From assembly GCF_007279655.1 (NCBI RefSeq), contig NZ_QKWN01000002.1:496001-560000 (forward strand): a stretch of DNA of 64,000 nucleotides. The letters run 5' to 3'. The stretch is from Robertkochia solimangrovi (GTDB lineage: Bacteria; Bacteroidota; Bacteroidia; Flavobacteriales; Flavobacteriaceae). Below are positions 4,860 to 53,466 of the stretch, piece after piece. The notes beneath the pieces are model-generated. The model was not told the origin of the DNA, searched no databases, and worked only from the letters and a program-made list of their open reading frames with translations. The first letter of the stretch is position 1. Every line of letters begins with the position of its first letter. A program made the translations under genes and the position numbers.

Positions 4860-5924
4860 ATGAAAAAACACAATTTTAGTGCAGGACCCTGCATTCTCCC
4901 TCAGGAAGTTATGAAGAAAGCTTCTGAAGCAGTAATCGATTTTGAAGGAATGGGACTCTCTCTGATCGAGATCTCACACAGAAGCAAGGAATTTATCGCC
5001 GTTATGGAGAAAGCACAGTCATTAGCACTTGAGCTTTTAGGACTGGAAGGTAAAGGATATAAGGCATTGTTCCTTCAGGGAGGTGCCAGCACACAATTCC
5101 TGAATGTAGCATACAATCTGTTAAATACGAAAGCAGCATATCTGAATACAGGTACCTGGTCATCCAAAGCGATCAAGGAAGCAAAATTATTCGGAGATAT
5201 CGTCGAAGTTGCTTCCTCAAAAGACGCGAACTTTAATTATATCCCCAAGGATTATACGATACCGGGCGATGCGGATTATTTCCACCTCACCTCTAACAAT
5301 ACCATTTTCGGAACCCAGATCAAGGATTTCCCTGAAACTGAAGTGCCGGTTGTTGCTGATATGAGTTCTGATATCTTCTCGCGCCAGCTTGACTTCTCTA
5401 AATTCGGGCTCATCTATGCAGGAGCTCAGAAGAATATGGGTCCGGCAGGAACCGTCCTGGTTGTGATCAAAGAGGATATTCTTGGAAAAACACAAAGAGC
5501 CATCCCTTCTATGCTTGATTACAAAATCCACATCGAAAAGGAGAGCATGTTCAACACACCACCGGTATTTCCGGTATATGTTTCCATGTTAACCCTTCAA
5601 TGGCTAAAGGATTTAGGAGGTATCGCCGCGATCGAGAAGCGCAATGAAGAAAAAGCAGCATTGATCTATAAAGAGATCGACCGAAACCCATTATTTAAAG
5701 GTTTCGCTGCCATCGAAGACCGCTCTGTGATGAATGCGACCTTCAACCTTACCGATGAAGCCCTTAAAGGTAAATTCGACGCTATGGCCAAGGAAGCAGG
5801 ATTAAGTGGAATCAACGGACACCGCAGTGTCGGAGGCTACAGAGCTTCTATGTATAACGCACTCCCTCTCGAAAGTGTACAGGCGCTCGTTGATACCATG
5901 CAGCAATTAGAAAAAGAAGCTTAA
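4860..5924 (+). CDS. serC: Phosphoserine aminotransferase
   Basis: Converts 3-phosphohydroxypyruvate and glutamate to O-phosphoserine and 2-oxoglutarate; in some bacteria it also serves PLP synthesis. The 354-residue length is typical. The N-terminal NFSAGPC is diagnostic and the PLP Schiff-base lysine is K191 (GAQKNMGP). GHRSVGGYRASMYNA near the C-terminus is the usual closing motif. serA follows after 29 bases, so serC-serA forms a serine-biosynthesis operon. A weak CAAATTTG box at 4825-4832 might drive it separately from the luxC-like gene. Confidence 0.97.
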   Translation: MKKHNFSAGPCILPQEVMKKASEAVIDFEGMGLSLIEISHRSKEFIAVMEKAQSLALELLGLEGKGYKALFLQGGASTQFLNVAYNLLNTKAAYLNTGTWSSKAIKEAKLFGDIVEVASSKDANFNYIPKDYTIPGDADYFHLTSNNTIFGTQIKDFPETEVPVVADMSSDIFSRQLDFSKFGLIYAGAQKNMGPAGTVLVVIKEDILGKTQRAIPSMLDYKIHIEKESMFNTPPVFPVYVSMLTLQWLKDLGGIAAIEKRNEEKAALIYKEIDRNPLFKGFAAIEDRSVMNATFNLTDEALKGKFDAMAKEAGLSGINGHRSVGGYRASMYNALPLESVQALVDTMQQLEKEA

Positions 5925-5953: not shown

Positions 5954-6904
5954 ATGAAAGTTTTAGCAAACGACGGAATTTCTCAAAGTGGTATCGATGC
6001 CTTGCAAAATGCAGGTTTCGAAGTGATCACCACTAAAGTTGCACAGGAACAGTTGGTGAACTACATCAATGAAAATGATGTTGCCGTATTACTGGTGAGA
6101 AGTGCTACAAAAGTTCGAAAGGATATTATTGACAATTGCCCTTCTCTGAAAGTTATTGGACGTGGTGGTGTTGGTATGGATAACATCGATGTTCAATATG
6201 CGAAAGACAAAGGTCTGCATGTGATCAACACGCCGGCTGCTTCATCAGCATCGGTTGCCGAACTTGTTTTTGCCCATTTATACGGAGGTGTACGTTTCCT
6301 TTTTGATGCAAATAGAAATATGCCGCTCGAAGGAGAAAGCAAATTCGGCCAGTTGAAAAAGGCATATGGAGGAGGTAGTGAACTTCGTGGAAAAACGCTG
6401 GGAATTATCGGTATCGGAAGAATCGGTCAGGAAACTGCCAAGATTGCGATCGGTGTAGGTATGAATGTTGTTGCCTATGACCCGTTTATTGAAGAAGTTA
6501 GCATTACCCTTAACTTTTTTGACGGGCAATCAGCAGATTTCAAGATCAAGACAATTGGTAAAGAAGAAGTACTCAAACAAGCTGACTTCATTACCGTGCA
6601 TGTACCTGCTCAGAAAGAATATGTGATCGGTAAAAAAGAACTAGAACTCGTTAAGCCGGGAGTTGGTATCGTAAATGCCGCTCGTGGTGGAGTTATTGAT
6701 GAAGTTGCCCTCGTTGCAGCATTAGACGATAATAAAGTAGGATTTGCCGGACTGGATGTATTTGAGAACGAACCAACACCTGCTATCAAGATCCTTATGC
6801 ACCCTAAAGTTTCGCTAACTCCGCATATCGGAGCAGCGACCAGTGAGGCTCAGGACAGGATCGGTGTCGAACTTGCAGATCAGATCGCAGCCTTATTAAA
6901 ATAA
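5954..6904 (+). CDS. serA: D-3-phosphoglycerate dehydrogenase, short form
   Basis: Catalyses the NAD-dependent first step of serine synthesis. At 316 residues it is the short type without a C-terminal ACT domain, so feedback inhibition through ACT is not expected. The NAD-binding motif GxGxxG is at 153-158 and the catalytic residues are R244 (NAARGG), E272 and H291 (PHIGAAT). It follows serC by 29 bases and is closed by a strong terminator. The phosphoserine made by this pair could also feed cysteate synthesis in the lipid locus at 45-51 kb (inference). Confidence 0.93.
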   Translation: MKVLANDGISQSGIDALQNAGFEVITTKVAQEQLVNYINENDVAVLLVRSATKVRKDIIDNCPSLKVIGRGGVGMDNIDVQYAKDKGLHVINTPAASSASVAELVFAHLYGGVRFLFDANRNMPLEGESKFGQLKKAYGGGSELRGKTLGIIGIGRIGQETAKIAIGVGMNVVAYDPFIEEVSITLNFFDGQSADFKIKTIGKEEVLKQADFITVHVPAQKEYVIGKKELELVKPGVGIVNAARGGVIDEVALVAALDDNKVGFAGLDVFENEPTPAIKILMHPKVSLTPHIGAATSEAQDRIGVELADQIAALLK

Positions 6905-42030: not shown

Positions 42031-44469
42031 TTAAACGGTCGCATCCTCCTTTTTACCTATTCCCCGGTAAATTCCAAAGATCAGCAATAGAAACAAGACA
42101 ACCGTACTACCTAAAGCGATTCTACTACCGGATGTAACCACATCAGGATCGAAGGTAAAGGTAATCTCATGCGAACCTGCAGGAATTTCCAGGGCGCGAA
42201 GTGCATGATTTACACGAAACTCGGTAGCTTCCTCCCCATCGATGGTTACTTTCCACCCATGCGGATAATACATTTCCGAAAAGACTGCAAGTCCTGTATT
42301 TGAATTTTTTGAAGTATATACCAATTTATCCGGTTCATAGGTTTTAAGTGATATTGTCGCCGTTGAATCAACATTATAAGAATCCTTTAAACCAGCAAGA
42401 TCAGGAAAGGCAGCGGTATTCAGTATTGCTGAGGAACTTAGATCAACACTATCCATTAACTGCATTCCTGCATCGGCATTAGGCGCTTTAATCAATCGAT
42501 CGACAAACCAGGCATTTCCAAACGCATAAGGATTGCGCGCCGGATAAACCTGACCTTTATCGTTCTTGGTTTTGATGTATCGTACATTCAACATATTCAG
42601 AACAGCCATATTATTATTAGCTACCTGATATTCAAAAAGCTCTTGTAAACGCTTAGGTTTTGCAGCATGATAACCTCCGATCGAATTATGAAAATAAGAG
42701 GTTCTGGCTCCGTTCAGGCCTTCCTGAGGATCAAATACTCTGAAGTACCCTGTATCCTTTGTGATCTCTTTATCTGCAAAATCTTCCTGAAATGGCTTCT
42801 GATAAACTCTTGAACTCACAAAGTCATCTCCGTTGACATAACGACGGTCTACTCCTGCCAGATCGTACACGATCAGCACTCCGATACATAGTAGTACCAG
42901 ATTTACCTTCAGTTTATCTTTTAAATAAAACCAGAGAGTACCAAAAGCAATTGCCAGTAATAGTAAGCTTCGGAAGAGGTCTTCATTATAAATGGCTTTT
43001 CGATCACTTCGGATCACATCGATGAATTCCTGGCCATAGTTCTGTGCATATATCGCATCATGCGGACCATTGAAACCAAAGCTTCCTTTTAAGAGGAATA
43101 ACAATACAATACAACCTCCAAGAATTCCTCCTCCGTATAAAAGACTTTGCATCTTAAGTGCTTTATCGATATTGGTATCCATTAATTTTGATAACGTCAC
43201 GATAGCGAGTACCGGAAAACACAATTCCAAAATCACCTGAATCGAAGTTATCGCTCTGAATTTGTTATACATAGGAAAATAGTCGATCATCAGATCAGTA
43301 AGGATGCTGAAATTATGTCCCCACGACAATAATAAGGATAATACACTTCCACCCAGGAGCCACCATTTCAATCGTCCTTTAACTAGGAAAAGTCCGGTAA
43401 GAAACAAAAAGAATATAACCACCCCCACATAGGCCGGACCTGCCACTCCTGGCTGATCACCCCAGTACATCGGTAATGATTTACTAAAATCAAGGGCCTG
43501 AGCCGGATCTACTCCCCGATTCGTAAGAAAGGTATAGGTTTTGGATCCTTTACCCAGATTTTCCTGATCACTTCCTCCAAAAAGCCTTGGAATAAACAAG
43601 TTCAGAGATTCGGTAATTCCGTAGCTATAGGTAGTGATATAATCTTTATCAAGACCGCTGGTCGATTCCTTTAAGCTGCCATCGGGATTTAGTGTAAGAT
43701 CACTTTGACCCCTCGTACTCCAATCGGCATATTCGCGGGTCGCCATGATATTGGTCGCATTTGTTCCTATTGAAATAACTACAGCTGCCGCGAGTATTCC
43801 GGTAGCCTTGAAAAAATGCGATAATTCTTTCTTTCTATAAGCATCTACAAGATAGGCTACCCCCAATACCAGTACTAACAGTAAGAGGTAATAGGTCATT
43901 TGAAAGTGATTCGCATTGATCTCGAGTGCCATGGCAAATGCAGTGAGCAGGAATCCGGCGAGATAACGTTTACGGTAACATAAAATGATCCCGGCAAGTA
44001 CCCATGCAAAGTACCCGACGGCATGTGCCTTAGCATTATGCCCTACGCCAAGAATAATTATCAGATATGATGAAAATCCAAAAGCCAGCGCCCCGATTAG
44101 AGATAATTTCCAATCTACTTTGAGCACGAGCATAAGCAAATAAAAACCAACGAAGTAAAGAAAAAGATAATCTGCCGGTCTTGGCAAAAACCGTATGGAC
44201 TTATCGAGCTTCTTGATATAATTATTAGGGTAATTCGCCCCCAGCTGATAGGTTGGCATACCGGCAAAAGCACTATTAGTCCAGTATGACTCATGCCCTG
44301 TACTTTCCTTTAGGTCATTCCTTTCCTTCGACATTCCGATATATTGAACTATATCACTTTGAAGAATCTGTTTCCCCTGAAGTACCGGGGAAAAATAAAG
44401 TAAGGATATAACGGTAAATAACAGTAACACCAATAGATGGGGTACTGCCTTTTTAAGTTGGTCAGTCAT
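42031..44469 (-). CDS. YfhO family membrane protein
   Basis: 812 residues with about twelve membrane helices and a large C-terminal periplasmic part (about 490-790). YfhO proteins are GT-C-fold candidates thought to glycosylate envelope polymers such as lipoteichoic acid in Bacillus. Here FWTNSAFAGMP-like YWTNSAFAGMPTYQLG near residue 62 and the final GSHEITFTFDPDVVTSGSRI support the family. It is followed closely by a glycosyltransferase and a flippase, consistent with surface-glycan assembly. Confidence 0.88.
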   Translation of the reverse strand: MTDQLKKAVPHLLVLLLFTVISLLYFSPVLQGKQILQSDIVQYIGMSKERNDLKESTGHESYWTNSAFAGMPTYQLGANYPNNYIKKLDKSIRFLPRPADYLFLYFVGFYLLMLVLKVDWKLSLIGALAFGFSSYLIIILGVGHNAKAHAVGYFAWVLAGIILCYRKRYLAGFLLTAFAMALEINANHFQMTYYLLLLVLVLGVAYLVDAYRKKELSHFFKATGILAAAVVISIGTNATNIMATREYADWSTRGQSDLTLNPDGSLKESTSGLDKDYITTYSYGITESLNLFIPRLFGGSDQENLGKGSKTYTFLTNRGVDPAQALDFSKSLPMYWGDQPGVAGPAYVGVVIFFLFLTGLFLVKGRLKWWLLGGSVLSLLLSWGHNFSILTDLMIDYFPMYNKFRAITSIQVILELCFPVLAIVTLSKLMDTNIDKALKMQSLLYGGGILGGCIVLLFLLKGSFGFNGPHDAIYAQNYGQEFIDVIRSDRKAIYNEDLFRSLLLLAIAFGTLWFYLKDKLKVNLVLLCIGVLIVYDLAGVDRRYVNGDDFVSSRVYQKPFQEDFADKEITKDTGYFRVFDPQEGLNGARTSYFHNSIGGYHAAKPKRLQELFEYQVANNNMAVLNMLNVRYIKTKNDKGQVYPARNPYAFGNAWFVDRLIKAPNADAGMQLMDSVDLSSSAILNTAAFPDLAGLKDSYNVDSTATISLKTYEPDKLVYTSKNSNTGLAVFSEMYYPHGWKVTIDGEEATEFRVNHALRALEIPAGSHEITFTFDPDVVTSGSRIALGSTVVLFLLLIFGIYRGIGKKEDATV

Positions 44470-44492
44470 TAAAAAAGTATTGTTCGGTTTAG

Positions 44493-44771
44493 TTAGTCAA
44501 TTTCTTCAAATTCGATATATTCTCCAACTTTTCCTGAAGAATTTTTACGGCTGTCATTTTGTGGAGCATGGTCTATAACGGTCTCCCCCTGCTGTGCCCC
44601 GCTGGCGGACTGTTGTTGATATTGCTGATATTGTTCGAATTTCTGCCTTACTTTAGTTTCCATCTTCTTCGAAGCATATTTCAAAAGCATCGGACCGAAG
44701 AGTCTGGCGAGTATTTTAACCCCGTAATAGATCAGTAAAATGATTAAAATCGTTATTAAAATCTGCATCAT
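44493..44771 (-). CDS. DUF4834 family small membrane protein
   Basis: 92 residues with one N-terminal helix (about 4-24) followed by a basic, Gln-rich segment (RQKFEQYQQYQQQSA) and an acidic C-terminus (GEYIEFEEID), the pattern of the Bacteroidota DUF4834 family; function unknown. It starts the minus-strand group that continues with YfhO, the glycosyltransferase and the flippase. The start could be M1 or M2. Confidence 0.75.
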   Translation of the reverse strand: MMQILITILIILLIYYGVKILARLFGPMLLKYASKKMETKVRQKFEQYQQYQQQSASGAQQGETVIDHAPQNDSRKNSSGKVGEYIEFEEID

Positions 44772-44790
44772 TTGTATATTTATGAATAGT

Positions 44791-44798
44791 CAAAAATA
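44791..44798 (-). promoter_or_regulatory. -7 box TATTTTTG before DUF4834/YfhO group
   Basis: Exact TAnnTTTG on the minus strand, ending 19 bases before the DUF4834 start codon. No TTG at -33. Confidence 0.4.
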
Positions 44799-44981
44799 CG
44801 ATAGATTCATGGGAATCGCAGATTTACTCACTTAAAAAAATAATAAAATAGTGGTTTTACTGTTTATTTCGTTAATTGATAATCTGTTAATTAGTAAGTA
44901 AAACCATCATTAAATTGAACTAATACCAAAAAATTGATGCAAAAAATCCTATTTTCGTCCAATCATAAACCCAAATCAATT

Positions 44982-45944
44982 ATGAAACCTAGCTTATTTC
45001 TTGGTCTGGCGATATTCCTGATCGCTTCTACCGGTTATGCGCAATATACCGACGTTATAAACTCTAATCGCCCCGGAAGTTCTTATAGTGCCTATGCCGT
45101 AGGCACGAATGTACTTCAGGTTGAAGGCGGGCTATTCTATGATCACCGGGATCACAGCGGACTTAACACTACCGCAAACCAATTCGGTTTAAATTATGTG
45201 GTTCGATACGGATTATTTTTCGAACAGCTGGAGATTATTCTGGATGGTTCTTATGCTTACGAAAAAGTAAAGGATCATTCGACACTACCCGAGTATTCCT
45301 ATAATCAAAGTGATTTTCAAAGCAACACGATCGGAGCAAAATATCTGATCTATGATCCCTTCAAAAAGAATAATACTCCCAACCTTTACAGCTGGAAGGC
45401 TAATAATACTTTCCAATGGAAAAACCTTATCCCTGCAATAGCGGTATATGCGGGTGCAAATTTCAATTTCGGAGATAACCCGTTTCACCCGGAAGATCCT
45501 ACGGTAAGTCCGAAGGTTATGTTAGCCACTCAGCATCACCTTACACCAAAATGGGTGTTGGTCACCAACCTGATCTATGATAAATTCACCGGAGACGATC
45601 CGCTTTTTAACTACATCATCACCCTTACCCATGCGCTCAATGACAGAAGATACACGGTATTTGCGGAACATCAGGGTTATAAGAGTGATCTTTATGGTGA
45701 TGGAGTGTTTCGTGTGGGAGCAGCACGTTTAATCGGAACCGACCTGCAAGTAGACGCTGCTTTAGGGACGAACATAAAAGACACCCCTAAACGGTATTTC
45801 GGTTCGATAGGCCTATCCTGGAGATGGGACAAACATAAGGATAAGGCCGTAGACGTTGACAATATCTCTAACCAGGAGAAAAGAGCCATTAAAAAACGTA
45901 ACAGAAAGAACAAAAAGGGTATTTTTGAGATCGACGAAAACTAA
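44982..45944 (+). CDS. Putative outer-membrane transporter-like beta-barrel
   Basis: 320 residues with signal peptide (cleavage after TGYAQ). The mature part is predicted beta-rich and begins INSNRPGSSYSAYAVGTNVLQ, the pattern of the Bacteroidota transporter family related to PF13557. The last 25 residues are highly charged (SNQEKRAIKKRNRKNKKG), unusual after a barrel. Start ATG 44982 is chosen because it begins the signal peptide; the frame is open upstream to 44934. It precedes the GNAT gene by 9 bases, so both may form one transcript. Confidence 0.7.
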   Translation: MKPSLFLGLAIFLIASTGYAQYTDVINSNRPGSSYSAYAVGTNVLQVEGGLFYDHRDHSGLNTTANQFGLNYVVRYGLFFEQLEIILDGSYAYEKVKDHSTLPEYSYNQSDFQSNTIGAKYLIYDPFKKNNTPNLYSWKANNTFQWKNLIPAIAVYAGANFNFGDNPFHPEDPTVSPKVMLATQHHLTPKWVLVTNLIYDKFTGDDPLFNYIITLTHALNDRRYTVFAEHQGYKSDLYGDGVFRVGAARLIGTDLQVDAALGTNIKDTPKRYFGSIGLSWRWDKHKDKAVDVDNISNQEKRAIKKRNRKNKKGIFEIDEN

Positions 45945-45953
45945 AGAATAAAT

Positions 45954-47078
45954 ATGCAGTCAATTAGTATCAGGGAAGTTCAGTCTAAGAACGAAATGCT
46001 GGAGTTTGTTAAGTTTCCTTTTCAACTATACAAGAATTCAAAACAATGGGTACCTCCTATTATCAAAGAGGAACTTGAAAATTTTGACCGGGAGAAGAAC
46101 CCTGCATACAAAGAAGCTGAAGCCTGGTTTTATCTGGCAACCAAAAACGGAAAGATAGCCGGAAGAGTAGCAGCGATCATCAATTGGAGTGAAGTCAAGG
46201 ATCTCGGTAAGCCTAAGATGCGTTTCGGATGGTTTGATTGTATTGATGACGAAGCAGTTGCCAGGGCTCTTCTCGACAAAGTAGCGGAAGTAGGTAAGAC
46301 TCATAATCTGGAATATATCGAAGGTCCTGCCGGTTTCAGCAACATGGATAAGGCTGGAATGCTGATAGAAGGGTTTGATCGCATCGGCAGTATGCCAACG
46401 AATTACAATTATGCATACTATCCGAAGCTGATGGAACTCGCAGGATTTGAAAAGGAAGTTGACTGGAAGGAATATGGGATCAACGTTCCAAAAGTGATTC
46501 CGGATAAAATTCATAAATTCTCTGCTTTACTCTTACAAAAGTTCAATCTTAAGGTTTTAAGATTCAAATCGAACAAAGAACTGCTTCCATATGCAGATCA
46601 GATCTTTGATCTTATGAACAGAAGTTACAGCAGTCTGGAATCCTTCACGCCCATTAAACCCTATCAGGTAGAACACTATAAAAATAAATTTCTGAAATTC
46701 ATTCATCCGGATTTCATCAACCTTATCGCAGACGAGAATAATAAGATCGTTGCCTTTTCAGTGATCATCCCCTCCTTTTCACTTGCTTTACAGAAGGCAA
46801 ATGGCAAATTATTCCCTTTCGGTTTTTATCATTTATTACAAGCCCAACGAAAGAATGACAAAGCGACGATGTTATTGATCGGTATTGATCCGGAATACTT
46901 GAGAAAAGGACTTACCGCTATCATTTTTAAGGAGGTTTACGACCTTTTTACCCGTCGTGAAATCACTTATGTGGAAACCAATCCAGAACTTGAAACGAAT
47001 ACTCAGGTACAAGCCTTATGGAAGGATTATGATCCGCAATTGATCAAGAAATGGAGAACCTTCAGAAAAACTATATAA
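45954..47078 (+). CDS. GNAT-fold acyltransferase, resembling bacterial ceramide synthase family (putative)
   Basis: 374 residues, duplicated GNAT-like fold. The N-terminal region (FVKFPFQLYKNSKQWVPPII, then NPAYKEAEAWFYLATKNGKI and AGRVAAIINW) has the layout I associate with the large GNAT family that includes the Caulobacter ceramide synthase, which N-acylates the long-chain base. The C-terminal half contains IGIDPEYLRKGLTAIIFKEV, the acyl-CoA binding turn. It is opposite an alpha-oxoamine synthase whose 3' end is 73 bases away, with a bidirectional terminator between. N-acylation of a capnine or sphinganine base is thus a reasonable inference, not proven. Database names such as GTP cyclohydrolase, which I recall for relatives, have no support. 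Confidence 0.6.
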   Translation: MQSISIREVQSKNEMLEFVKFPFQLYKNSKQWVPPIIKEELENFDREKNPAYKEAEAWFYLATKNGKIAGRVAAIINWSEVKDLGKPKMRFGWFDCIDDEAVARALLDKVAEVGKTHNLEYIEGPAGFSNMDKAGMLIEGFDRIGSMPTNYNYAYYPKLMELAGFEKEVDWKEYGINVPKVIPDKIHKFSALLLQKFNLKVLRFKSNKELLPYADQIFDLMNRSYSSLESFTPIKPYQVEHYKNKFLKFIHPDFINLIADENNKIVAFSVIIPSFSLALQKANGKLFPFGFYHLLQAQRKNDKATMLLIGIDPEYLRKGLTAIIFKEVYDLFTRREITYVETNPELETNTQVQALWKDYDPQLIKKWRTFRKTI

Positions 47079-47102
47079 AGATTTACTTTACATCTATGCT
47101 AT

Positions 47103-47134
47103 AAAAAAAGCTGTCCGAATGGACAGCTTTTTTT
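47103..47134. terminator. Bidirectional terminator between GNAT and oxoamine synthase genes
   Basis: Stem AGCTGTCC/GGACAGCT with a GAAT loop, flanked by seven A residues on one side and seven T residues on the other. Confidence 0.9.
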
Positions 47135-47151
47135 ATGTATTGTTGAATAGA

Positions 47152-48411
47152 TTATTCACCCATAGCGACAGCAACTGCCTGGGACAATCTTTTATACGTA
47201 CCATTTTCAAGTCGACTTCTTATCGCTGAGAAGGCTTCCAGTGTCACCTGAATATCTTCCAACGTATGCGTTGCAGTCGGGATCATACGCAATAATATAA
47301 GTCCTTTAGGAATTACCGGATATACAACGATCGAACAGAAGATACCATAGTTTTCACGAAGATCCTTCACCAAAGCCATAGCTTCAGGAATACTTCCGTT
47401 AAGATATACCGGAGTCACACAGCTTTGAGTGGTTCCGATATCAAAACCACGTTCTTTAAGACCGTTCTGAAGTGCATTTACATTTTCCCAAAGCTTATTT
47501 TTAAGCTCTGGCATAGTGCGAAGCATATCCAGTCTTTTCAGCGCTCCTTTTACAAAAATCATCGGAAGCGACTTTGCGAACATCTGAGATCTCAGGTTAT
47601 ATTTCAGATAATCGATCACCTCTTTATCACCCGCAAGGAATGCTCCGATACTCGCCATAGATTTAGCAAAAGTAGCAAAGTACACATCGATATCTTCCTG
47701 AACTCCCTGTTCCTCACCTGCTCCGGCACCGGTTTTACCCAAAGTACCAAATCCATGAGCATCATCAACAAGCAGTCTGAATTTAAATTTCTTTTTGAGT
47801 TCAACGATCTCTTTCAATCGTCCTTGCTCTCCTCTCATTCCGAAAACACCTTCAGAGATCACCAGGATTCCCCCCCCGGTCTGTTCAGCCATTTTAGTAG
47901 CGCGTTCCAGGTTTTTCTCGAGGCTATCCATATCATTATGCTGATAGGTGAAACGTTTCCCCATATGGAGACGTACACCGTCAATGATACATGCATGTGA
48001 ATCCACATCGTAAACGATAATATCATCTTTGGTTACCAGGGCGTCTATAGCAGACATGATCCCTTGATATCCGAAATTTAAAAGATAAGCAGCCTCCTTC
48101 TTAACGAAAGATGCCAGTTCGTTCTGAAGTTGTTCATGAAGATCGGTATGACCACTCATCATTCGGGCACCCATAGGGTAAGCAGCTCCATGATCAGCAG
48201 CAGCTTCCGCATCAACTTTACGAACTTCGGGGTGGTTGGCTAATCCGAGATAATCATTAATACTCCATGTAATAACTTCCTTGCCATTAAATTTCATTCG
48301 GTTGGATATCTGACCCTCCAGTTTTGGAAATACAAAATACCCTTCAGCTTGTGAGGCCCATTTACCAAGGGGTCCCTTATTTTCAATTATCCTGTCAAAT
48401 AAATCTCTCAT
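47152..48411 (-). CDS. Alpha-oxoamine synthase (serine palmitoyl / cysteate acyl transferase type)
   Basis: 419 residues, PLP-dependent. K250 (TFAKSMASIG) forms the Schiff base, DDAHG lies at 216-220 and the ring-stacking H139 is in DSHACI. The family condenses an amino acid with an acyl thioester with loss of CO2. In Flavobacteriaceae this type has been tied to capnine synthesis (cysteate plus acyl donor) and, in other Bacteroidota, to sphingolipids (serine). The substrate cannot be read from the sequence with certainty. It sits downstream of an SDR, a JmjC-like oxygenase and a cysteine-synthase-like enzyme, which favours cysteate. Confidence 0.85.
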   Translation of the reverse strand: MRDLFDRIIENKGPLGKWASQAEGYFVFPKLEGQISNRMKFNGKEVITWSINDYLGLANHPEVRKVDAEAAADHGAAYPMGARMMSGHTDLHEQLQNELASFVKKEAAYLLNFGYQGIMSAIDALVTKDDIIVYDVDSHACIIDGVRLHMGKRFTYQHNDMDSLEKNLERATKMAEQTGGGILVISEGVFGMRGEQGRLKEIVELKKKFKFRLLVDDAHGFGTLGKTGAGAGEEQGVQEDIDVYFATFAKSMASIGAFLAGDKEVIDYLKYNLRSQMFAKSLPMIFVKGALKRLDMLRTMPELKNKLWENVNALQNGLKERGFDIGTTQSCVTPVYLNGSIPEAMALVKDLRENYGIFCSIVVYPVIPKGLILLRMIPTATHTLEDIQVTLEAFSAIRSRLENGTYKRLSQAVAVAMGE

Positions 48412-48449
48412 CTATATGGAGTTTTTAAATTTCTTGATTTTACAGCAGG

Positions 48450-48457
48450 CAAAAATA
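48450..48457 (-). promoter_or_regulatory. -7 box TATTTTTG before the oxoamine synthase
   Basis: Exact TAnnTTTG on the minus strand in the 78-base gap, ending 38 bases before the ATG. It may give the synthase its own transcript in addition to read-through from the SDR. Confidence 0.4.
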
Positions 48458-48489
48458 ATTAATTTAAATCTCTTATCATAAATTATTTA

Positions 48490-49344
48490 TTAACCTCGCA
48501 CGAGTCTGACAAATTGTTTTTCAAAGAGTCGGTCCAGTAATTTATCAGGGAATAAATGGATAGCAAGCCAGAACATCCATTTTTTCGGAGCCACCAGATA
48601 CCGGGTATTTCTTCTTTTACCTTCAGCGACCTGGTAGATAACTTTCGCCACTTCCTCAGCAGCCAAAGCATTGGATTCCATACTATCAATCACCTTATCC
48701 ATTTTTTTATAAATGTTCTCATACGGCGTATTCACGTACTTTTCAGGGTCACCCCCATTACGCGCTTTACTCCATATTTCTGATTTTATCGGACCTGGCT
48801 CCACCACAGTAACTCTGATCCTTTCACTGATGAGCTCTCTTCTCAATGCATCCGACATCGCTTCCAATGCATGCTTACTTGCAGAATAGGATCCCATAAA
48901 AGGTCTGGTCACTCTCCCTGCTCCGGAACTAATGTTAATAATTTGTCCTTTCGCTTTTTTATTTGCGAATCCGAGCAGTGGTAAAAACACCTGAATTACA
49001 TTGAGAACACCCAAAACATTTACATTGAGTTGTTTCTCAAAATCCTTGATATCGATATAGGCCATAGGAGCACTACCCGATATCCCTGCATTATTTACAA
49101 GTACATCCAGTCCTTTCCCATTAAGATGGGCAGCGATCTGAGAAAATGCTTTTTCTACAGATTCACGATCCGTGATATCAAATACTATCGTAGTAAAACG
49201 ATCCTTAAATTCATTCTCGAGTCGAATTGCATCCTTGGATTTCCGAACACTTCCAAAAACCTGATAACCTTGCTCCAGGAAGTATCGCGCGGAAGCAAAT
49301 CCAATTCCCGAAGAGACTCCGGTAATTAAAACTGATTTCATCAA
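48490..49344 (-). CDS. Short-chain dehydrogenase/reductase
   Basis: 284 residues, classical SDR. Cofactor motif TGVSSGIG at 8-15, NNAG at 84-87, catalytic S139/S140, Y153 and K157 (YSASK). Arg/Lys after the second strand (SVRKSKD) suggests NADPH. In this context the likely reaction is reduction of the 3-keto long-chain base made by the alpha-oxoamine synthase; this is inference, and a generic lipid reductase is possible. Its ATG overlaps the stop codon of the cupin gene (ATGA). Confidence 0.85.
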   Translation of the reverse strand: MMKSVLITGVSSGIGFASARYFLEQGYQVFGSVRKSKDAIRLENEFKDRFTTIVFDITDRESVEKAFSQIAAHLNGKGLDVLVNNAGISGSAPMAYIDIKDFEKQLNVNVLGVLNVIQVFLPLLGFANKKAKGQIINISSGAGRVTRPFMGSYSASKHALEAMSDALRRELISERIRVTVVEPGPIKSEIWSKARNGGDPEKYVNTPYENIYKKMDKVIDSMESNALAAEEVAKVIYQVAEGKRRNTRYLVAPKKWMFWLAIHLFPDKLLDRLFEKQFVRLVRG

Positions 49345-50201
49345 ACGCTTTTTATCTTTTGCATTGCCAGCACTGCATTCGCACGTGCCTTATTATCTTT
49401 ATAATCCTTCCAGCGATGCCCTGCCAAAAAGTTCATTCCGGTATCCACTGTGAATAACCGGACGATGTTCCATAACCCCCTGGCTCTGCTACTCAAAGAC
49501 TCATTTGCTCTGAGAGCCAGTGAAAACCCGCCTTCTGAGTAATAAACGTAATGCCACCAAAGACGAGGTATAAACAGAGTTTCCCCATGATGAATTTCGG
49601 CTTTATAGCAATGAGTGTATTTAAACGCAGGAAATTCCTCCCAGTCGGGTTTTAACACATCTACATGTGCATGATTAGTGAAGGGTAATTGGTAAAGATA
49701 TTTCGCCTCTTCCGGCGGAAACAAATAGACTTCCTTGATCGTCTGAAAATGTGTCAGGAAGACATTGGAACAATCTATATCATAGTGAAGATTGAGAGCG
49801 GAACCTTTACCGCCAAAAAACATAAGAGCGAATTTAAAGAATCCATCCATTATTTCCGGAGTAGAATAATCCTGGGATAACTCCGGAGCCCTTTTCATAA
49901 TCTGAAAGTTATGAAACCTCAGCTTGCAGGGCTCGTTTTCAATAATGTCCAGATAGTCCGAAAATTTCTTATAGGTAACGGGTTTCATATACCCGTTACC
50001 CGGGTTATGATAGGACTTATCATACATGGGAATTTCCCAGTGACCGTAGGTTTTTCTAAAAAAATCGAATGTCCATTTATTCGTCGCCTTCCAATCTTTT
50101 GCCAGATCTTTTAGAATAACCGGTCTGTTGGCTGAAAGATACTTTTCATGAAATTCCCTTTTGCTGATATTTGAAACTTTATCAACAAGGCGAACATTCA
50201 T
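49341..50201 (-). CDS. JmjC-like cupin (cupin_8) family Fe(II)/2-oxoglutarate oxygenase
   Basis: 286 residues. The metal-binding triad H139-x-D141 (LHYDID) and H217 (RLWWHYVYY) is intact, with the 2-oxoglutarate lysine K156 in TIKEVYLFPP. Such enzymes hydroxylate proteins or small molecules. Placed between a cysteine-synthase-like enzyme and an SDR in one operon, it could hydroxylate a lipid or fatty acid intermediate, but a protein substrate cannot be excluded. Coupled to the SDR by an ATGA overlap; 16 bases after the PLP enzyme. Confidence 0.82.
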   Translation of the reverse strand: MNVRLVDKVSNISKREFHEKYLSANRPVILKDLAKDWKATNKWTFDFFRKTYGHWEIPMYDKSYHNPGNGYMKPVTYKKFSDYLDIIENEPCKLRFHNFQIMKRAPELSQDYSTPEIMDGFFKFALMFFGGKGSALNLHYDIDCSNVFLTHFQTIKEVYLFPPEEAKYLYQLPFTNHAHVDVLKPDWEEFPAFKYTHCYKAEIHHGETLFIPRLWWHYVYYSEGGFSLALRANESLSSRARGLWNIVRLFTVDTGMNFLAGHRWKDYKDNKARANAVLAMQKIKSV

Positions 50202-50217
50202 TAAGTTTCCGAATTCT

Positions 50218-51258
50218 TTATTTAATGTATTCTATCTTCTGAACTTCCTTATTATTCACAGCATCGAAGAACCCTTGTTCACTCATCCATTCGTCACTGT
50301 AAATCTTACTCATATATCTGGAACCGTGATCCGGGAAGATCATGACGATATTACTATTCTCATCAAATTCCCCTTCCTCGGCCAGTTGTTTGACAGCCTG
50401 CATAACAGCTCCACTGGTATATCCCACAAAACACCCTTCGGTTTTTGAGATCTCACGAGCGGTATGAGCACTGTCTTCGTCTGTTACTTTTACGAATTTA
50501 TCAATTATATCGAAATCTGTCGCTGTTGGAATCAAATTTTTACCAAGTCCTTCAATACGATACGGGTAGATCTCATTCGTATCAAATTCTCTGGTTTCAT
50601 GATATTTTTTCAAAACGGATCCATAAGCATCCACACCGATCACACGAATATTAGGATTCTGTTCCTTAAGAAAACGGGATGTCCCTGAAATAGTACCTCC
50701 GGTTCCGCTACATGCGATAAAATGCGTGATCTGCCCACCTGTTTGTTCCCAAATTTCAGGACCGGTAGACTGATAATGCGCTTCTACGTTCAGTTCATTG
50801 AAATACTGATTGATATAAACCGATCCTTTGATCTCTTCGTGCATACGCTTTGCAACACTGTAATAAGACCTTGGGTCATCAGCGCTAACATGAGCAGGAC
50901 AAACATAGACCTTAGCTCCCATGGAACGCAACATATCGATTTTATCTTTTGATGATTTTGAACTCACCGCCAGAATACATTCGTATCCTTTGATGATGCT
51001 CACCATGGCAATACTGAATCCGGTGTTCCCGGAAGTAGTCTCTATAATAGTATCCCCTGGTTTAAGAATACCTTTCTTTTCGGCTTCCTCAATAATATAC
51101 AGAGCAATTCTGTCTTTGGTTGAGTGTCCAGGATTAAAGGCTTCCACTTTTGCATAAAAGTTACCGGCAAGCGATTTGGTAATTTTGCTCAGTTTGATCA
51201 GTGGGGTATTACCGATCAGTTCCAAGACATTGTTGTAGGCTTTTATCTTTTGTTCCAT
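50218..51258 (-). CDS. Cysteine-synthase-like PLP enzyme (candidate cysteate synthase)
   Basis: 346 residues, fold type II. The PLP lysine is K48 ([10 protein letters not shown]), the phosphate loop SGTGGT and the substrate loop ETTSGNTG (73-80). It lacks a C-terminal CBS regulatory domain but has the CBS-like C-terminal motif [17 protein letters not shown]. General annotation is cysteine synthase or cystathionine beta-synthase. Its position as first gene of the operon with the oxoamine synthase suggests conversion of O-phosphoserine plus sulfite to cysteate, the amino acid of capnine; this is inference. Confidence 0.75.
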
Positions 51259-51275: not shown

Positions 51276-51302
51276 CAAAAAGGTTTTGAATTATTCAAAA
51301 CC
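51276..51302 (-). terminator. Terminator after the S9 peptidase
   Basis: Stem GGTTTTGAA/TTCAAAACC with a three-base loop on the minus strand, then five T residues; it separates the peptidase from the lipid operon. Confidence 0.75.
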
Positions 51303-51327: not shown

Positions 51328-53466
51328 TTACTTCCTTATCCCTTCAAGATCCAGCAGAAAAGCATACTCCATCGCGACCTCCTTTAAGGCCTCAAATCGG
51401 CCCGAGGCGCCACTGTGACCCGCATCCATGTTCGTTTGAAATAAAATAATTCCATAACCTTTTTTTCGGTCTCTTAAACGCGCTACCCATTTAGCCGGCT
51501 CCCAATACTGAACCTGTGAATCATGTAATCCCGTAGTGATCAACATATTCGGATAATTCAAATCCGACACATTATCATACGGCGAATAAGATTTCATATA
51601 ATCGTAATATTTTCTCTTGTTTGGATTTCCCCATTCATCATATTCTCCGGTCGTTAACGGAATACTTTCATCAAGCATGGTAGTAACCACATCTACGAAA
51701 GGAACTTGCGTTACAACTCCGTTAAATAACTCTGGTGCCAGGTTCACAACTGTTCCGATGAGCAATCCTCCGGCTGAACCTCCCATTCCATACAGATGTT
51801 TGGAAGAAGTATATTTTTCCGAAATCAAATATTTACCACAATCGATAAAATCAGTAAAGGTATTCTTCTTATGCAGTAATTTCCCATCTTCATACCATTC
51901 TCTTCCAAGATACTCCCCTCCTCTTATGTGAGCGATCGCATAGATAAAACCTCTGTCAAGAAGTGATAATCGAACCGTAGAAAAATAAGGATCTATGGTC
52001 GAACCGTAGGAACCATAACCATAAAGCAACAACGGAGATTTTCCGTTCTTTTTAACCATCCCTTTTCGATAGACCAGAGAGATCGGAATCTTCGTGCCAT
52101 CTTCAGCTGTTGCCCACACACGCTCAGAAGTATAATTTCCTTTTTGGAATTTACCTCCGAGCACCTCCTGTTCTTTCATGACCAATCGGTCATGGGTATC
52201 CATATTATAATCGATAGTACTGGCAGGCGTGGTTAGCGAATTGTAAACATACCTTAAGGTAACTGTATCAAAATCAAGATTGGTCGATGTAAAGGCAGTA
52301 TAAGTTTCATCATCAAAAGGAATAAAATATTCTGATTCATCCTTCCAGTTGATCACCTTTATTTTATTCAGACCATTTTCCCGTTCACTTACTACCAGGT
52401 ATTTTTTAAAGATATCTATATCTTCCAGTAGAACATCCTTGCGATGGGGAATCACCTCTGTCCAATGCTCTTTGGTGGTTTCCTTAACCGGTGTTTTCAT
52501 CAATTTGAAATTCACCGCATTATCGGCATTGGTGATTACATAAAAGTTATCCTCAAAATGTGCAATTCCATATTCGAGCCCTCGGATTCTCGGCTGAAAA
52601 ACCTTTGGTGTTCCTTCAGGATCATCAGCATCCAGAATACTATATTCTGAAGTTAAAGTACTTCCGGAACCAAAAATGATATATTGCTGAGATTTGGATT
52701 TATACACAAAAGCATTGAAGGTTTCATCCTCTTCATGATACACCAGGCTATCCTCAGAAACATCGGTCTCCAGCTTATGACGATAGATCATCGCAGACCT
52801 TAGTGTCTGCTCATCCTTTCTCGTGTAAAAAAGCGTTTTATTATCATTAGCCCAGGTACTGCTACCGGTCGTATTATCGATTACCTCCGGAAATTCCGCT
52901 CCGGTTTCAAGGTTCTTAATACGAATTTCATATTTTCTGCGCCCAAGTGTATCGATGGCATATGCCGCAAATTTATTATCCGGGCTGATGTTGATACCTC
53001 TCAGATTAAAATAAGAATAGGATTCAGCAAGTTCGTTACAATTGAACATCACCTCTTCTTCGGCATTTACCGAATCGATCTTACGAAGATAGATAGGGTA
53101 ATCCTTTCCTTTCTCATATCGGGTATAGTACCAATATCCATTGAATTTATAGGGAACCGACTCATCATCTTCTTTGATACGTGCCTTCATCTCTTCAAAT
53201 AAAGAATTTTTAAGGCCGTCTGTATGAGCGGTCATTTTATTGTAGTATTCGTTCTCTCTTTCCAGATAATCGATTACCTCAGGATTCTCTCTTTCATTAA
53301 GCCAGTAAAATTCGTCTGTACGTATATCACCATGCTTTTCAAGAGTAACGGGCTTTTTCTCTACCTTAGGAGGTATTATGTTTTCCATATTTCTTACTTC
53401 GGGGTCAGTATTACAAGCTGCTGCAAAAGTAAGGTATAAGAGAAAAATGCCGGGTTTAAATTTCAT
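51328..53466 (-). CDS. S9 family oligopeptidase (oligopeptidase B type), lipoprotein
   Basis: 712 residues. A signal with lipobox (FAAACNTD) is followed by the N-terminal beta-propeller and a C-terminal alpha/beta hydrolase domain. The catalytic Ser is near residue 564 in GGSAGG, with [17 protein letters not shown] before it as in PtrB. The His lies in the C-terminal [11 protein letters not shown] and the Asp in [11 protein letters not shown]. It cleaves oligopeptides after basic residues in known relatives. Cell-envelope location is inferred from the lipobox. Confidence 0.93.

Follow-up and report, generated by a model that had tools for sequence, protein, structure and literature searches.

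What is an oxygenase of the JmjC fold doing within a bacterial sulfonolipid operon, and on what might it act? The question is raised by a 64 kb stretch of the genome of Robertkochia solimangrovi (the whole of which we refer to as the window; GC content 40.2%; the genome measures 4.41 Mb, and the stretch belongs to its contig C14), in which four minus-strand genes, including one for a short-chain dehydrogenase/reductase (SDR), are packed as an operon:

50218–51258, minus strand: capA, a cysteine-synthase-like cysteate synthase (NF053679, 661.6 bits)
49341–50201, minus strand: JmjC-fold Cupin_8 oxygenase, proposed sulfonolipid hydroxylase (PF13621, 108.3 bits)
48490–49341, minus strand: SDR, probable 3-ketocapnine reductase in the role of CapC (adh_short, 173.8 bits)
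47152–48411, minus strand: capB, a cysteate fatty-acyltransferase of the alpha-oxoamine synthase family (solved-structure matches, Schiff-base lysine K250, and K280)

The chemistry of capA, capB, and capC has already been published, and the new part is the oxygenase in the operon (hereafter the cupin). Judging from sequence comparisons, we think it reasonably probable that this is a capnine operon with built-in tailoring, in which the cupin hydroxylates the sulfonolipid that the other three enzymes help to make.

The genes are tightly spaced: capA and the cupin gene lie 16 nt apart, the SDR gene and capB lie 78 nt apart, and the stop codon of the cupin gene overlaps the ATG of the SDR gene by one base (TGATG). 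This ATG, at 49341, is a likelier SDR start than the TTG (end 49344) at which the open reading frame (ORF) opens. A preliminary description of this DNA had listed five ORFs here, namely these four and a GNAT acyltransferase gene facing them, and had placed the four in one minus-strand operon. Coordinates, strands, and Pfam domains agree for all five, and the operon is borne out both by the spacing and by the recurrence of the same order in a genome from another family.

CapA passes the curated cut-off of 600 bits of the NCBIfam model CysteaSynCapA (NF053679), and matches a solved structure (PDB 9k2p) with 534.5 bits, in agreement with the earlier proposal that cysteate is made here from phosphoserine and sulfite. 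CapB matches the cysteate-C-fatty acyltransferase PDB 28eh with 735.7 bits and PDB 7u7h with 582.8 bits, compared to 244.1 bits for a solved serine palmitoyltransferase. We regard 7u7h as SulA because, once a 20-residue tag is allowed for, its lysines agree with the numbering of that enzyme. In SulA of Alistipes finegoldii, which is the same enzyme as CapB, Lys281 is diagnostic, whereas serine palmitoyltransferase (Spt) has an alanine at that place (PMC9304779); its equivalent in CapB is K280, 30 residues on from the Schiff-base lysine. The active-site comparison with cysteate and serine acyltransferases that the preliminary description had proposed thus yields a cysteate-type enzyme. The diagnostic lysine is present in 55 of the 63 loci scanned, a number that includes some genes twice, and its motif was not found in the other eight, which comprise five CapB loci and three loci of lower-identity paralogues.

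The host genome encodes three oxoamine synthases at E 1e-20. Besides CapB, these are Kbl (656.6 bits against a cut-off of 493) and an enzyme that we take to be BioF, the gene for which adjoins bioD-, bioA-, and bioB-like ORFs. CapB itself scores 291.7 and 252.4 bits against the Kbl models, under their cut-offs (460 or 493), and so does not score as the glycine C-acetyltransferase or Kbl-type enzyme held out as a test of the preliminary description. By these comparisons, we assign CapA as the cysteate synthase and CapB as the cysteate acyltransferase. Because of the CapB scores, K280, and the separate assignment of the other two oxoamine synthases, the long-chain base predicted from this locus is most likely capnine.

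The SDR is less specific in its matches, scoring 160.3 bits against the 3-ketodihydrosphingosine reductase model NF049977, below the cut-off of 400. However, in 12 operons its gene is placed between those for CapA and CapB, and it is probably the 3-ketocapnine reductase, as had been suggested. In four further loci (L078, L079, L083, and L094), capA adjoins capB with neither cupin nor SDR gene between them, and since the SDR gene is missing from that place, the reductase would be encoded elsewhere. Verified 3-keto reductases share little sequence and are located apart from the other pathway genes (PMC11211663).

The cupin is tied to these genes by its position. A scan of named genomes with the cupin as query gave eight loci, in each of which the matching sequence is flanked by capA and the SDR gene, in the order POP–capA–cupin–SDR–capB (POP denoting a prolyl oligopeptidase family gene). 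Seven of these are intact (five in Galbibacter or Joostella, two in Robertkochia), and the eighth, in Leptobacterium flavescens, is decayed. At the level of the order, the cupin was found in 7 of 395 genomes at E 1e-70, host included, and one of these, a 1.6 Mb genome from another family (G404), carries all four genes in identical order, with overlaps of a few bases and protein identities of 59.5, 55.6, 48.3, and 68.1% in operon order. The other five order-level matches have neither capA nor capB in the stretches examined (8–18 kb). Intact capA–cupin–SDR–capB operons are thus present in nine genomes, from Robertkochia, Galbibacter/Joostella, and one member of another family. Because the order recurs in another family at 48–68% protein identity, the clustering of the four genes goes beyond chance.

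The distribution is nevertheless narrow. The cupin was found in 2 of 199 genomes of the family (E 1e-70), in 17 of 198 genomes of the class (E 1e-30), where only the host has it beside capB among the listed places compared, and in 6 of 395 genomes of the phylum (E 1e-65, host included), where the five foreign stretches (11–17 kb) contain no capA or capB match. Conservation of the gene order, proposed earlier as a check, therefore holds within a few genera but not across the Flavobacteriaceae. CapB-type genes, for comparison, occur in 174 of the 198 Bacteroidia genomes (E 1e-100). A search with CapA returned 176 of these 198 genomes, but most of the listed matches are only ~52–58% identical, in frames of ~455–500 amino acids, and we take most of them, on sequence, to be cystathionine beta-synthase; CapA was accordingly dropped as a class-wide marker. 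CapA-like genes are present in at least eight genomes of the class (three at 83% identity, and five, host included, with capA next to capB), a count that omits several short frames at 52–58% identity. Genera of the gut rely on a cysteate synthase of archaeal type (PMC10191378).

Three relatives have lost the cupin, or carry it in decayed form, while retaining capA, the SDR gene, and capB. It is absent at E 1e-60 from two of five Robertkochia genomes, the capA–SDR gaps of which measure only 269 and 439 nt and hold no recognisable cupin remnant in three-frame translation. In Leptobacterium flavescens (L065, 7774–8334), 96 C-terminal codons are left, without the HxD ligands. We observed also that a tract of short CCAACCA-like repeats precedes this remnant, which corresponds to the C-terminal third only. 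In the CapB tree, the three cupin-less operons stand at different places, requiring a minimum of three changes, at least two of which are forced by starred branches. Where the cupin is intact, it is under purifying selection, with dN/dS values of 0.047 (L059/L060) and 0.028 (L059/L061) that fall among those of the rest of the operon; these values rest on two of five cupin pairs, dS being saturated in the other three. The cupin thus behaves like a tailoring enzyme: purifying selection maintains it in two families, but relatives have lost it and still retain the core genes.

The protein has the residues expected of an active oxygenase. H139, D141, K156, and H217 are invariant in all 27 aligned proteins, and by analogy with related enzymes H139, D141, and H217 (HxD...H) would be the iron ligands and K156 the 2-oxoglutarate-binding lysine. 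The AF2 model (mean pLDDT 90.1) has an extra C-terminal pair of helices, and its nearest solved fold is JMJD5, followed by TYW5, FIH, and JMJD7. The arginine pocket of JMJD5 includes Glu238 and Ser318 (PMC5818494), and in the alignment these positions are taken by Y60 and L136 of the cupin (the JMJD5 numbering offset was set by hand, and is consistent with the residues E, Y, W, W, and S). As the arginine-pocket residues are not kept, a role as an arginyl hydroxylase appears unlikely.

A further indication comes from a second cupin of the host genome, which is the sister of the operonic ones. The eight operonic cupins of Flavobacteriaceae are grouped with support of 100/98 in both trees that we built, and the set of ten that includes this paralogue and the cupin of the other family has support of 99/96 and 100/98. 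The first tree had 33 rows; in the second, five distant rows were added and six earlier ones left out. The paralogue also shares residues such as H97, Q100, and T154 with all eight operonic cupins that were aligned, whereas the 18 other proteins do not have them. The gene for the paralogue (L034, 7409–8904, contig C2) overlaps that for a PF04116 fatty acid hydroxylase, the sole solved-structure matches of which at E 0.1 are two entries for yeast SCS7 (best E 1.4e-16), a ceramide very long chain fatty acid hydroxylase. This SCS7-like hydroxylase was found at E 1e-10 in the host only, among 19 genomes searched.

Taken together, these observations outline a candidate pathway. CapA would convert phosphoserine and sulfite to cysteate, CapB would condense cysteate and a fatty acyl thioester into 3-ketocapnine, as had been proposed for the oxoamine synthase in the preliminary description, and the SDR would reduce 3-ketocapnine to capnine. 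An N-acyltransferase encoded elsewhere would complete the sulfonolipid, and the JmjC-fold Fe(II)/2-oxoglutarate enzyme would use O2 to hydroxylate either the capnine base or the N-acyl chain, the product being hydroxylated as RIF-1 is. The steps from cysteate synthesis to N-acylation have been established with homologous enzymes from other species, whereas for the cupin we infer the activity, the substrate, and the position of the hydroxyl group. Hydroxylation of the sulfonolipid is the likeliest of the cupin's possible roles because an Fe/2-oxoglutarate oxygenase stands among capnine genes and its sister is paired with a relative of a ceramide hydroxylase. The earlier suggestion that the oxygenase defines a modified lipid hence gains from the operon position, the losses, and the paralogue's neighbor, and stands as a candidate role.

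RIF-1 carries a 2-OH on its acyl chain and a 5-OH on its base, and these mark it off from other capnoids (PMC3463246); Robertkochia is reported to be strictly aerobic (PMC7386787), and reports list unidentified lipids and aminolipids. We tentatively suggest, with less confidence than in lipid hydroxylation as such, that the operonic cupin has changed from a protein hydroxylase into a lipid hydroxylase, adding the extra hydroxyl group of RIF-like sulfonolipids, and that the sister, paired with the SCS7-like enzyme, would make the sulfonolipids of the host doubly hydroxylated.

Several points weigh against a role in lipid hydroxylation. To our knowledge, proteins or tRNA are the substrates of those JmjC-type hydroxylases for which structures have been solved. 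The grouping of all nine operonic cupins on one side of a branch has unstarred support only (91/78 and 86/51 in the two trees), and the CapA of the other-family genome scores 506.8 bits, below the CapA cut-off. In other Bacteroidota, the majority of the related cupins are not next to a lipid gene; their neighbors are mixed, with EF-Ts, FtsY, MutS, Nqr, UbiA, ribosomal protein L13, pirin, and glyoxalase, among others. Finally, iso-C15:0 2-OH is given for R. solimangrovi but not for the cupin-bearing R. marina, and both species have little C15:0 2-OH (PMC7386787); as R. marina has the cupin but no reported iso-C15:0 2-OH, the reported 2-hydroxy fatty acids do not track the operonic cupin.

Some of these points favor the strongest alternative, in which the cupin hydroxylates protein or RNA, for example a ribosomal protein or one of the Cap enzymes, and shares no more than its transcript with the cap genes. 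JMJD5, FIH, and TYW5 are its nearest folds and also its profile matches, and related cupins elsewhere adjoin EF-Ts, L13, MutS, and other housekeeping genes. We nevertheless consider this rather unlikely, in light of the cupin's fixed place in the cap operon in two families (although another order in the genome would suit a protein target equally well), the absence of the JMJD5 arginine-pocket residues, and the pairing of the sister cupin with an SCS7-like hydroxylase. A lipid role for the cupin family as a whole was discarded, as lipid contexts are found only at the cap operon and the SCS7-like pair.

Among the related cupins, we note that a third one in the host (L035, 7888–14524, contig C11) ends a biotin operon, its gene immediately following bioB, and that its close relatives in L045 and L046 likewise adjoin bioB. 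In genome G891 (L117, 418–3162), the genes for a double-glyoxalase protein and an SDR come closely after that for a cupin with 51% identity to the operonic protein; this is a different small operon.

The next alternative concerns the completion of the lipid, and with it the genes and stem-loops that flank the operon:

45954–47078, plus strand: tandem GNAT acyltransferase, convergent neighbor outside the conserved unit
47100–47137, no strand assigned: stem-loop, putative bidirectional terminator 3' of capB (pattern scan)
51282–51302, minus strand: stem-loop, putative terminator between the peptidase gene and capA (pattern scan only)
51328–53466, minus strand: POP gene, upstream neighbor of capA (domain match, synteny)

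The preliminary description had cast the convergent GNAT protein as the N-acyltransferase, drawing on the GNAT-type ceramide synthase that it named from Caulobacter. The GNAT gene does face capB in the window and, at varying distance, in seven of eight related loci (L058, L059, and L061–L065), as well as in L076, L077, L080, and L081, and in L080 and L081 it adjoins capB although capA does not. However, homologues (E 1e-30) occur in 52 of 174 CapB-positive and 9 of 24 CapB-negative genomes of the class (four of the 24 being named by elimination from the list), and the gene mostly accompanies a block with an outer-membrane protein (PF13557) and YfhO (42031–47078 in the window), apart from the cap genes. 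In genome G065 it is on a different contig from capB, and there is no GNAT match near the operon in L060 nor within ~7 kb in the other-family locus L103. Its fold model (mean pLDDT 76) matches tandem GNAT enzymes in general, and searching solved structures by profile yielded no useful match. We have rejected the gene as a member of the conserved unit on distribution and synteny, and it is quite improbable that it encodes the N-acyltransferase completing the lipid.

Between capB and the GNAT gene, the stem at 47100–47137 has 17 pairs, with an A tract before it and a T tract after it, and terminator-like stems flank the operon on both sides. The bidirectional terminator described earlier is plausible on this structure, although the whole scan found no excess of such sites (8 against 7.4 expected in shuffles). 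In Robertkochia, Galbibacter/Joostella, and Leptobacterium, capA has the POP gene as its upstream neighbor, but no POP gene was found near the operon of the other-family genome, and it is probably separate from the cap operon. As for the supply of phosphoserine, the serC gene noted earlier (4860–5924, plus strand) passes its cut-off (473.5 against 253 bits), whereas the serA-like gene (5954–6904, plus strand) remains under its own (304 against 454 bits), and both are ~40 kb from the cap operon.

Returning to the cupin, it could instead oxidize an early or small intermediate, such as cysteate or ketocapnine, or cleave the C–S bond, and so serve turnover or supply. The cupin gene comes directly after capA, and Fe/2-oxoglutarate enzymes that release sulfite from sulfonates exist, TauD being an example, but a sulfonate-releasing enzyme inside a sulfonate-making operon would be self-defeating, making this reading very improbable. 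Finally, the sphingolipid option of the preliminary description, with the synthase as a serine palmitoyltransferase, has been dropped as having next to no probability: CapB belongs to the same superfamily and has the serine palmitoyltransferase model NF047600 as its best NCBIfam match by E-value, but at 299.7 bits against a cut-off of 640, and its structure matches (736 and 583 against 244 bits), K280 in place of the alanine of Spt, the presence of CapA in the same operon, and the Kbl and biotin-operon identities of the other oxoamine synthases all argue for cysteate.

With hydroxylation of a sulfonolipid as the preferred role of the cupin, the locus can be set beside known systems. Like the capnine set described by Liu et al. 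in 2022 (via PMC10191378 and PMC12927429), with capA and capB of Capnocytophaga ochracea and CapC of Ornithobacterium rhinotracheale, it encodes a cysteate synthase, a cysteate acyltransferase, and a short-chain reductase. The CapA and CapB accessions of C. ochracea are consecutive, whereas here capA and capB flank the oxygenase and SDR genes in one operon, and the accessible portions of these sources do not mention an oxygenase. Alistipes differs also in using the archaeal-type cysteate synthase instead of CapA (PMC10191378).

The cupin resembles JMJD5, TYW5, and FIH in fold and Fe/2-oxoglutarate residues, but is set apart by its extra C-terminal helices and its lipid operon context and, with respect to JMJD5, by its arginine-pocket residues. 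SCS7 and Caulobacter CC_0202 have the same proposed job, the addition of a hydroxyl group to a membrane lipid, but belong to families other than Cupin_8. The same is true of the lipid hydroxylases FA2H, LpxO, and OlsC/OlsE. In the open-access literature, we found no gene named for the 2-OH or 5-OH of sulfonolipids such as RIF-1, and no link between cupin or JmjC proteins and sulfonolipids (including in the accessible portions of PMC9859067, PMC11324152, and PMC13166967), although a report in a subscription journal is possible in either case.

Sulfonolipids are unusual membrane lipids that bear on gliding, inflammation, and the rosette development of choanoflagellates, which one sulfonolipid causes to form colonies. 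The conserved operon, together with sister species that do not have the oxygenase, provides a candidate gene and a natural comparison for sulfonolipid hydroxylation. A JmjC-fold lipid hydroxylase would be unexpected, although lipid-acting JmjC enzymes in general were not searched for. If our reading is correct, the presence of the cupin would predict which Flavobacteriales make hydroxylated, and possibly morphogen-like, sulfonolipids.

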